From: Candidatus Gastranaerophilales bacterium
GTDB lineage: Bacteria > Cyanobacteriota > Vampirovibrionia > Gastranaerophilales > Gastranaerophilaceae
Assembly: GCA_944324375.1 (NCBI GenBank)
Contig: CALUWB010000021.1
Location: forward strand, 1 to 32,071
Direction of reading: 5' to 3'
DNA length: 32,071 nt
The translations under genes were made by a program, and so were the position numbers. Below, in pieces: positions 1 through 30,375 of the stretch (positions are counted from its first letter, which is position 1; the number at the start of each line of letters is the position of its first letter). The notes under the pieces were generated by a model. The model made no database searches and was not told where the DNA came from. It saw only the letters and a program-made list of their open reading frames with translations.

Positions 1-216
1 CGGTGAAGGACTCCGTTTGCGATTAGAAAAACGATTAAGTATCGTTTTTCGTAACATTTATTCTTTTATTAAATAGCGTATCCAAAGCAAATGGAGGGAG
101 TGAGAACCCGTTTGTTCGAAAATTTAAAAATAAATTGCATATTCAAAATAATATGTTTAACCCGAACAAATTGGTTCGAATCCCAGTTGCTTAATCTTTG
201 CTTGAAAAAATAGGCC
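1..216. repeat. tRNA-Lys-linked tandem repeat, copy 1
   Basis: First of two adjacent copies of a ~216-bp unit. Each unit begins with cggtgaaggactcc and ends with a tail running into taggcc, so that unit junctions recreate the tRNA-Lys 3' end. About the first 115 bases differ from copy 2 at a single position (gcgtatcc versus gcatatcc); the middle is divergent; the last ~40 bases are again similar. Inside are inverted repeats: GAAAAACGAT/ATCGTTTTTC around a 5-base loop, ctccgtttgc with gcaaatggag, and cgtttgttcg with cgaacaaa, the last enclosing the variable part. The window starts exactly at the unit boundary, so the array may continue to the left. No ORF is convincing inside it. Function is unknown. 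Confidence 0.9.
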
Positions 217-434
217 CGGTGAAGGACTCCGTTTGCGATTAGAAAAACGATTAAGTATCGTTTTTCGTAACATTTATTCTTTTATTAAATAGCATATCCA
301 AAGCAAATGGAGGGAGTGAGAACCCGTTTGTTCGGAAATTAAAATAAATTATAAATATATACAATTCAAAACATTTACCCCGAACAAATTGGTTCGAATC
401 CTTATTTCTTAATCTTTGCATGAAAAAATAGGCC
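217..434. repeat. tRNA-Lys-linked tandem repeat, copy 2
   Basis: Second copy of the unit, directly abutting copy 1 and running into the 3' end of the tRNA-Lys gene. The 19 bases at 203-221 (tgaaaaaataggcccggtg) recur exactly at 421-439, where 429-439 are the last 11 bases of the tRNA gene. The 12 bases before them (cttaatctttgc, 190-201) also recur at 408-419. The central ~60 bases differ from copy 1 in sequence and by two in length, while the flanking stem arms are kept. Read on the minus strand, both units lie downstream of tRNA-Lys and would be co-transcribed with it unless a terminator intervenes. Confidence 0.9.
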
Positions 435-500
435 CGGTGGGATTCGAACCCACGACCAAAAGATTAAGAGTCTTCTGCGCTACCACTGCGCCACGAGCCT
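429..500 (-). tRNA. tRNA-Lys (anticodon CTT)
   Basis: Read on the minus strand the sequence folds as a cloverleaf: acceptor AGGCTCG with CGGGCCT, D stem GCGC/GCGC, anticodon stem GAAGA/TCTTT with loop CTCTTAA (anticodon CTT), T stem GTGGG/CCCAC with loop TTCGAAT, and discriminator A at 429. The 3' CCA is not encoded. The gene is followed on its own strand by a T run and then by two structured repeats that duplicate its 3' end. No clean -35/-10 pair was found upstream of 500. Confidence 0.96.
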
Positions 501-544
501 ATATGGTAATTACTTTATTCAGTTTTATTGTGGTGATTTACAAT

Positions 545-570
545 TTGAGAAAATACTTAAGCTTTCTCAA
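545..570. repeat. 8-bp inverted repeat upstream of tRNA-Lys
   Basis: TTGAGAAA (545-552) and TTTCTCAA (563-570) are perfect inverted repeats separated by 10 bases. They lie 45-70 bases upstream of the tRNA-Lys 5' end, between it and the stop codon of the minus-strand gene at 631. They could be an operator or a weak hairpin; no T run follows, so a terminator is unlikely. The rest of 501-630 shows no gene. Confidence 0.5.
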
Positions 571-630
571 CCATAGAAAACCACTTGCAACATTGTAATT
601 ATATGCCTAACTAATCAAAATATCAAGCTC

Positions 631-6371: not shown

Positions 6372-8361
6372 CGGATACTCCTTCTACTACATATGAGTAC
6401 ATTATATCACAATTTTTATACTTTTCAGTATTTCGAGATATTACCTCATTTATTCGTTTTTGTAAAAACTCTGCAAATGTTTTATTTCCATCTACTATTG
6501 CTAATGATAATATTGAATTTTCGGAATTCTCTTCCATATATGAATGCATTAAATACGCATCATTAAATATTTTTTCATCTTTTATTAAACTTGTTATTGT
6601 TTTTTTATCTGTTTTTAAATTAATAGACAATAAAGTCGAATTCTTCTCTTTAGCTTTTTGCATTAATTGTTTTTTGGTAAGTAAAAATTTAGTTTTTGAT
6701 GTAGATATTGGAACTACAAAATAAAAATTTGAGCCTTTATTTATTATACTATCACACCATATTGCACCATTATGCGCTTCAATTAATTGTTTAGCTATAG
6801 CTAAACCCAATCCTGACCCTCCTACTTGCCTTGATAATGAATTTTCTATCTGTTGGAATTTATCAAATACTTGTTTTAAATTATCTTTATCAATACCAAT
6901 ACCTTGATCTGAAACACAAACTTGAACATAATCCCCTGATAATCTTTCTATATCAGATTTAAAACATTCTTCTACTTGTATATCTTTAGAATTAATTATT
7001 GTTGATGTTATTTTGATTTTTCCATGATTTGGAGTAAATTTTATTGCATTTGATACTAAATTTGTTAATACTTGTTCTAACCTATTTGTATCTGCATATA
7101 TTTCTATATCTGAATTTGCAACATTATCATATTCTAATTCAATTTCTTTTTCTTTTGCCATACTTTGCAAATTATTTTTTACATATTCTATCACTGGTAA
7201 AATACTTGCATTAGTATATTTAAAATCTAATTTACCAGCTTCAATTTTTGAAATATCTAATAAATCATTAATAATTCCTGAAAGCCTTACAACATTTCTT
7301 TTTGCCATATCTAAAAATTTTATAGTATTTTCTTGTAGTTCTCCTGTTTTCCCACTTGTAATTATATCTAAAGAATTCTTAATTGTAGTTAAAGGAGTCC
7401 TTAATTCATGAGATACTATTGATATAAAATCAGATTTTAAACGTTCTAATTTTTCTAACTTTTTATTTGCATCAATTATTTCTTGATATAATATAGCACT
7501 TTTTAAAGGTAAAGAAACTTGTTGGACAATTGTTTGAAAACAAGTAGAATCTTCTAATGTGAAATCTGTTTCCCTAAATATTTCTGTAAAACCATGACAA
7601 TCATTATTTACATCAATAAATGATAATAAATTATCAAAGTTTAATACTTCAAAATCGTAATCTGAAATCGCATACTTAACTTTTTTTTCAACTACAATAT
7701 CATCTATATTTATATCAAAACTATTTGAAGAATTTCGTGATTTATAATTCATTACAGCTCGCAACTTTAATGATTCTACAAGCCTTTCTGATGGATTATA
7801 TGTAGAATCGATTAGTAAAACAGGCTCTTGCGAAGTTTTAAATGTTAATGTACACAACAAATTATAATTTAATGATTTTTCAATCCCATCATTCATTATT
7901 GAAATTAATTGTTCTTTATCCAAACTTCCTGACAAATTCGATGTTGTGGTATACAAAACATTTAATTGATATAAACTGTTAGCTAACTCCTTATTGGATT
8001 TTGCTAATTTTACTAATGATTTTTTTGTTTTTATACAAGAATTTATGGAAGCTCTTAAAACGGTTGGTGAAAAAGGATAAGATATAAACATATTTGCATG
8101 GTTTAATATATCTTTTGTTACATCTTTTTTATTTAATATTAAAATCGTAATAACATTGAATTCCTTTATTTGCCTATACAAATACTTAAAATCTACAGAT
8201 TCTATATCACAGTCAAAAATTACAATATCAGGATTCTCAACTTTTAAAATATCGATTATTAAAGTTTCATCACAACTAACTAACAACTCTTGCCCTGAAA
8301 GAATCGTTTTTATATCTGTTTCATAGCTACTATTTTCTGTTACTAGTAATAACTTTGCCAT
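6349..8361 (-). CDS. cytosolic sensor histidine kinase with pseudo-receiver and GAF-like input
   Basis: About 670 residues from the ATG at 8361. Residues ~1-110 resemble a receiver domain (MAKLLLVTE, IVIFDCD, ISYPFSP) but lack the acidic pair and the conserved Lys before PF, so this is a pseudo-receiver. About 130-295 look GAF-like. Next come a coiled linker, the HisKA dimer with FISIVSHELRTPL (phospho-accepting His318) and the HATPase with NLVSNAIKFTP, DQGIGI and GGSGLGLAI. Roughly 115 C-terminal residues match no domain I know. No membrane segment is visible, so it senses a cytosolic signal. An in-frame TTG at 8385 would add 8 residues, but MAKLLLVTE is a natural receiver start and TACCAT lies six bases before the ATG. 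Cognate regulator: the downstream receiver gene. Confidence 0.92.
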   Translation of the reverse strand: MAKLLLVTENSSYETDIKTILSGQELLVSCDETLIIDILKVENPDIVIFDCDIESVDFKYLYRQIKEFNVITILILNKKDVTKDILNHANMFISYPFSPTVLRASINSCIKTKKSLVKLAKSNKELANSLYQLNVLYTTTSNLSGSLDKEQLISIMNDGIEKSLNYNLLCTLTFKTSQEPVLLIDSTYNPSERLVESLKLRAVMNYKSRNSSNSFDINIDDIVVEKKVKYAISDYDFEVLNFDNLLSFIDVNNDCHGFTEIFRETDFTLEDSTCFQTIVQQVSLPLKSAILYQEIIDANKKLEKLERLKSDFISIVSHELRTPLTTIKNSLDIITSGKTGELQENTIKFLDMAKRNVVRLSGIINDLLDISKIEAGKLDFKYTNASILPVIEYVKNNLQSMAKEKEIELEYDNVANSDIEIYADTNRLEQVLTNLVSNAIKFTPNHGKIKITSTIINSKDIQVEECFKSDIERLSGDYVQVCVSDQGIGIDKDNLKQVFDKFQQIENSLSRQVGGSGLGLAIAKQLIEAHNGAIWCDSIINKGSNFYFVVPISTSKTKFLLTKKQLMQKAKEKNSTLLSINLKTDKKTITSLIKDEKIFNDAYLMHSYMEENSENSILSLAIVDGNKTFAEFLQKRINEVISRNTEKYKNCDIMYSYVVEGVSDEKNSNR

Positions 8362-30300: not shown

Positions 30301-30375
30301 TGGAGCGGGCGACGAGACTCGAACTCGCGATCTATTCCTTGGGAAGGAAGTATTCTACCACTGAACTACGCCCGC
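30301..30375 (-). tRNA. tRNA-Gly (anticodon CCC)
   Basis: On the minus strand: acceptor GCGGGCG with CGCCCGC, D stem GTTC/GAAT, anticodon loop TTCCCAA (anticodon CCC), T stem GCGAG/CTCGT with loop TTCGAGT, discriminator T at 30304 and an encoded CCA (30303-30301), unlike the other two tRNA genes here. The outer anticodon-stem pair is a C-U mismatch (stem CTTCC/GGAAT). It lies 26 bases after the tyrS stop on the same strand and may be processed from that transcript. A T-rich stretch follows. Confidence 0.95.

Follow-up and report, generated by a model that had tools for sequence, protein, structure and literature searches.

Hairpin-containing repeat units at the outer edges of tRNA genes in Gastranaerophilales: candidate mobile elements

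Described tRNA-end repeats and the array at tRNA-Lys(CTT)

The RtT repeats of E. coli (RF00391) are tandem units of ~178 bp, each of which ends in a tRNA 3' end. In the tyrV repeats an inverted T-arm (GGAAGGATGAGAAGC..) is followed by a T-arm restart GGTTCGA, an insert, AATCCTTCC and the tRNA 3' end. RtT is present in 4695 of 5426 E. coli genomes, at 1-14 places per positive genome (median 3); one strain with ten RtT places has eight RtT features annotated behind its two tRNA-Tyr genes. REPINs and REP sequences, which are linked to RAYTs, are described as small, non-autonomous palindromes whose stems change in a compensatory manner; the same source reports a putative intermediate of transposition and mentions small dispersed repeats of Nostoc (PMC3116915). 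The mitochondrial repetitive hairpin-forming elements look mobile, have conserved stems and sit in some cases within RNA genes; unlike for the units described below, copying of tRNA edges is not described in the accessible text of that source (PMC2800124).

The window analyzed here comprises 32,071 nucleotides from a Candidatus Gastranaerophilales bacterium (genome G000) and begins with an array beside tRNA-Lys(CTT) (Table 1). The original prediction had placed tandem repeats with a tRNA end after this gene, and two direct copies were indeed identified, each terminated by the final 11 nt of the tRNA (CACCGGGCCTA). The direct repeats 1-149/217-365 and 139-221/357-439 show 91% and 84% identity at spacings of 216 and 218. 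Over 212 aligned columns the proximal and the distal unit are 89.6% identical, and the junction 190-221 differs from its repeat at 408-439 by a single base, as had been noted. Position 1 of the window is the end of the contig (G000:C21:1) and lies inside the direct repeat. Contig C87 of the same genome terminates with a matching unit start (overlap counted as 49 bp); the coding region that precedes this start has a counterpart behind the single unit of the sister species G002. Because the contig begins within the array, two units are a minimum, in agreement with the end of C87.

On the tRNA strand, the order within a unit is trailer, inverted T-arm (GGATTCGAACC), hairpin, T-arm mimic (GGGTTCTCACTCCC), module and tRNA edge; the module of the window units is composed as CTCCATTTGC..GAAAAACGATACTTAATCGTTTTTC..GCAAACGGAGTCCTTC. 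The first reading of the sequence had missed the inverted T-arm within each unit and also a decayed unit on the 5' side of the tRNA (about 502-590), which contains a hairpin at 545-570 with a ATACTTAA core (DNA fold of 536-600, z -2.55). The promoter-like sequence upstream of it stems from a scan that gave no overall excess (5 found vs 5.2 expected). Compared with 200 shuffles, the RNA folds of positions 217-432 were more extreme on each strand (z -3.84 for plus, -5.36 for minus), and the DNA folds were weaker than the RNA folds (module z -2.77, arm hairpin z -1.94). A motif at 373-381 (ATTTACCCC / GGGGTAAAT) recurs in several unit loops as well as in further intergenic repeats. Near the array, tRNA was the sole Rfam family above threshold, and on this result the array was dropped as a candidate for a known conserved RNA family.

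Table 1. Features of the tRNA-Lys(CTT) array at the left end of the window.
Feature	Position	Strand	Basis
Further tRNA 3'-edge copy, start only, cut by contig end	1..4	-	Continuation on G000:C87 and in G002
Distal downstream unit, 208 nt	5..212	-	Direct repeats
Hairpin module, distal	5..96	-	Counterpart of the proximal module
Inner hairpin, distal	26..50	-	Direct repeats; stem analysis
T-arm mimic, distal unit	96..109	-	Sequence reading
Inverted T-arm copy, distal unit	173..183	-	Sequence reading
Copy of last 11 nt of tRNA-Lys, CACCGGGCCTA, separating both units	211..221	-	Sequence reading; direct repeats
Proximal downstream unit, 210 nt between tRNA edges	221..430	-	Direct repeats
Hairpin module CTCCATTTGC..GCAAACGGAGTCCTTC, proximal	221..312	-	DNA fold z -2.77
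Inner hairpin GAAAAACGATACTTAATCGTTTTTC, proximal	242..266	-	Direct repeats; stem analysis
T-arm mimic GGGTTCTCACTCCC, proximal unit	312..325	-	In folds, the inverted T-arm is paired with GGGTTC of the mimic
Inverted T-arm copy GGATTCGAACC, proximal unit	391..401	-	Inverted-arm score exceeds each of 60 shuffles of the locus
tRNA-Lys(CTT), intact, innermost copy	428..501	-	ARAGORN 428-501; Rfam RF00005 429-500, 72.6 bits
Decayed upstream unit, between promoter and tRNA	502..590	-	Sequence reading; better-preserved counterparts in G004, G005 and G001
Promoter-like TTGATA-17-TATAAT, 11 of 12	598..626	-	Promoter scan

Units in sister species and at other tRNA genes

The tRNA-Lys(CTT) gene and its flank were recovered from seven of the eight genomes of the genus; G006 yielded a related tRNA only. 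One unit with both flanks is present in G002, and G000 has two units as far as the contig end. In G004 two identical complete units and a third, truncated one, which runs into a Y1-transposase fragment, are located in the middle of a contig. G001 contains one unit and a damaged one, and the left part of a unit is all that was found in G005, G003 and G007. The unit of G002 shows 96.7% identity to the distal and 89.6% to the proximal unit of G000; the remaining pairs between species show 77-80%. The Y1-transposase fragment of G004 (..YNPVKHGLVNNVCDWQYSSF..; C15, L022 about 8080-8340) resembles a PF01797 protein of G001. At the loci L360 and L361 (G003 and G007) unrelated sequence, which may be an insertion, follows the left part of the unit in the array.

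A tRNA census comprised 34 tRNAs in G000 and 41 in G004, and exact copies of an edge, 11 nt or longer, were detected at 15 and 26 of them, respectively. The sides are strict: 5' edges recur upstream only and 3' edges downstream only, with 0 of 75 on the wrong side for each edge. Using 12-nt edges with no more than one mismatch, upstream copies were found at 19 and downstream copies at 17 of the 75 tRNAs of both genomes, compared with means of 0.27 and 0.21 expected from the edges of other isotypes; 3' edges searched upstream under these settings gave 0 of 75. Recurrence of the edges by chance is excluded. For 80 of the 114 tRNAs that have a module upstream, the edge copy mismatches its own tRNA at no more than one position of a 10-mer; for 22 it deviates at four or more of the ten positions. 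Compared with tRNAs of the same anticodon but different edges, the own edge fitted better in 92 of 109 cases (11 ties, 6 worse). The inverted arm went beyond shuffles in 21 of the 27 upstream units, with 6 not significant, and in 13 of the 24 downstream units, with 11 not significant.

Upstream units begin with the tRNA 5' edge and have the module in the D-loop, followed by the remainder of the D-arm, in many cases by an inverted D-arm, then by an AT-rich leader and the intact tRNA. Val(tac) lacks units in G000, and in G004 at least two stand between its promoter and the tRNA; for Arg(tct) the numbers are zero and one, respectively. The tRNA-Gly(CCC) of the window (30301-30375) is without edge copies, and its counterpart in G004 has downstream units. 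An AT-rich TGACAATTxAATA-like motif lies directly before tRNAs with upstream units at L298, L306, L309 and other loci. The predicted position after a lysine tRNA is thus correct for the window locus but too narrow, since many isotypes and both sides of the tRNA are involved, and the search near tRNA genes of related genomes, which had been suggested, located units at many isotypes across the family. Treatment of the array as a special case of lysine tRNA was dropped once the other loci appeared. The window repeats are members of a large family of hairpin units on the outer side or sides of many tRNA genes. Each unit combines a copy of the outer tRNA edge with an exchangeable palindromic hairpin module, and in most cases a tRNA arm is also present as an inverted copy. 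The units face outward, vary in presence and number among sister species and form tandem arrays.

Many downstream units belong to a second class (class II), in which GATGAGAACC is followed by a small hairpin, GGTTCGAGCG, an apical part, AATCCC and the tRNA end. Class II units match RtT in the order of their parts and are interrupted at the identical point of the T-loop. The window units share with RtT the tandem arrangement, the tRNA 3' edge at the end and the inverted T-arm; unlike in RtT, their module follows the T-arm mimic and does not lie in the T-loop. The units as a whole differ from RtT in that they occur at many isotypes and on both sides of the gene and that the module is also found in other palindromes. 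The likeness to tyrT/RtT proposed earlier therefore extends to the architecture (inverted T-arm, restart, insert, tRNA end) and not to the sequence, which had been called unrelated: RF00391 gave no match (E<=5) at 15 loci of the Gastranaerophilales unit family, the window array (L001) included, and none in 58 relatives under stricter filters. E. coli locus L326, scanned as the sixteenth source, gave three full matches. Judged by the Rfam model, the units and RtT do not form one family.

The module loop GATWCTTAATC occurs 19 times in G000 (1 for the reversed control), and many of these copies flank tRNAs for Met, Leu, Ser, Val, Thr/Tyr and Pro. Among 124 motif matches, which come from loci chosen because they bear the motif, 67 are located within 600 bp of a tRNA. 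Of these, 56 upstream and 7 downstream matches face out, and 0 upstream and 4 downstream matches face in (two before tRNA-Tyr, two at a contig end). The other 57 have no tRNA within 600 bp in the retrieved stretch; some of these stretches stop at a contig end, some matches look like chance hits in other sequence, and others are copies within other palindromes. In a phylum sample of 386 genomes the module was detected in 93, all from the family of the window (f1) except G039 of the same order, and the class II pattern in 62, all from f1; reversed controls of both patterns gave 0 across the 386 genomes. Among 80 listed of at least 113 matching stretches, the named relatives were nearly all Gastranaerophilales, Melainabacteria and Cyanobacteria, and four were titled as other bacteria (L172, L182, L204, L206). 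No module was found in viral contigs, and carriage by phage was dropped on this account.

The module is common to many isotypes and to the loops of unrelated palindromic repeats. In G012 and G027 it occupies the loop of two such repeats that are also found without it; the loci of this comparison were picked for the motif, and several of the "empty" matches in G027 are the other arm of a composite repeat. In L028 (674-847; G018:C115) the module of a tRNA-His unit is itself interrupted by a palindromic pair of the GTAGGTTGGG type, which resembles repeats near Y1 transposase genes.

Origin of the units

We lean towards the reading that mobile, non-coding hairpin elements which target tRNA genes and leave the gene whole are stacked locally in this array. 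The module would insert where single-stranded or cruciform DNA exposes a hairpin loop; in a tRNA gene this would be the D-loop on one strand or the T-arm on the other. Insertion would duplicate the outer edge together with its leader or trailer, so that the innermost gene remains complete, and the direct edge repeats would then allow growth and shrinkage of the array. The inverted arm may act as a targeting guide or may merely sequester the spare edge. Insertion into exposed hairpin loops, duplication of the edge and the class of the enzyme are points that we infer; neither a transposition event nor an enzyme was found. A RAYT as the mover was considered on account of the Y1 fragment in G004 and was weakened by its lack in motif-rich genomes: Y1/RAYT (PF01797) is present in 21 of 58 relatives, with 0 matches in G000 (97% complete), and is also missing from G021, G027 and G032 despite many motif copies. 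The presence or absence of units between species can also be explained by loss. The viral contigs without a module, the strongly deviating upstream edge copies and the inverted-arm signals that were not significant likewise count against this reading.

It is unlikely that the units are functional RtT-like RNAs, co-transcribed with the tRNA, folded, and excised as small RNAs or controlling tRNA processing, although their architecture equals that of the E. coli repeats and the single-strand folds exceed shuffles on both strands. Selection on RNA should leave wobble pairs. The module stems vary through compensatory change, and in 207 modules (1035 cells; 51 of 258 unique motif sites were left out as not being hairpins by the rule of at least four of five pairs) we counted 996 Watson-Crick, 2 G.T, 1 A.C and 36 other combinations. 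The same rule excluded 4 of 37 class II segments. The anticodon stems of 193 unique tRNAs at the collected loci (965 cells), by contrast, contain 896 Watson-Crick, 64 G.T, 0 A.C and 5 other combinations. This near-absence of G-T wobble argues against maintenance at the RNA level and, together with the module in the loops of unrelated palindromes, for a process at the DNA level; alternatively, wobble could be missing due to a recent spread of perfect palindromes. The patchy occurrence among sister species, the terminator-like hairpins read ahead of downstream units at several sister loci, and the module in repeats away from tRNAs also speak against RNA elements. Some role as RNA is possible, since in the cases read the upstream units are placed after the promoter and before the tRNA.

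Partial tandem duplication of tRNA ends by replication slippage, with subsequent decay and no mobile part, would account for the direct edge repeats, the tandem arrays and the identical adjacent units in G004. This explanation is quite unlikely, as it has to face a single module common to many isotypes and unrelated palindromes as well as the strict orientation. Remnant attachment sites of tyrosine integrases at the tRNA gene are very improbable. Integrase crossovers are known at the T-loop and the anticodon-loop, and the tRNA 3' edge is restored in the units; however, 5' edges with their leaders are duplicated too, the units measure about 95-220 bp and share a module at many tRNAs, and no integrase was recognized by eye among the listed ORFs of the window. 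The earlier suggestion of repeated integration at a tRNA site thus comes near to a stack of mobile hairpins, but no integrase was noticed beside the array. An assembly artefact, which had been named as a possible refutation and would fit a window that begins inside a repeat, can practically be dismissed, since sister species show one, two or fragmentary units, among them the single unit with both flanks in G002 and the mid-contig array of two complete units and a truncated one in G004.

Relation to other elements and significance

The units resemble REPINs as repeated palindromes with compensatory stems and differ from them by stems that are tRNA-derived, by site specificity and by the lack of a cognate RAYT in several motif-rich genomes. 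The small dispersed repeats of Nostoc, a subject of Elhai in 2008, are said to be tiny and mobile, to occur in the wider cyanobacterial phylum and to lie inside other repeats; to our knowledge, capture of tRNA edges by them has not been described. A literature search, mostly outside subscription journals, brought up no description that we recognized as such tRNA-bracketing units, which does not prove novelty.

We tentatively put forward the wider possibility of a bacterial class of non-coding elements which invade the loops of tRNA genes, use tRNA arms as target and building block, and have spread around many tRNA genes of Gastranaerophilales, the E. coli RtT repeats being another instance by descent or convergence. 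In practice, arrays of this kind interrupt contigs and look like parts of tRNA genes. If the reading as mobile hairpins is correct, RtT-like arrays would be recast as mobile DNA instead of RNA genes, insertion into hairpin loops could be studied in a natural system, and the tRNA genes of this gut lineage would be a recurrent target of hairpin elements that spare the gene.
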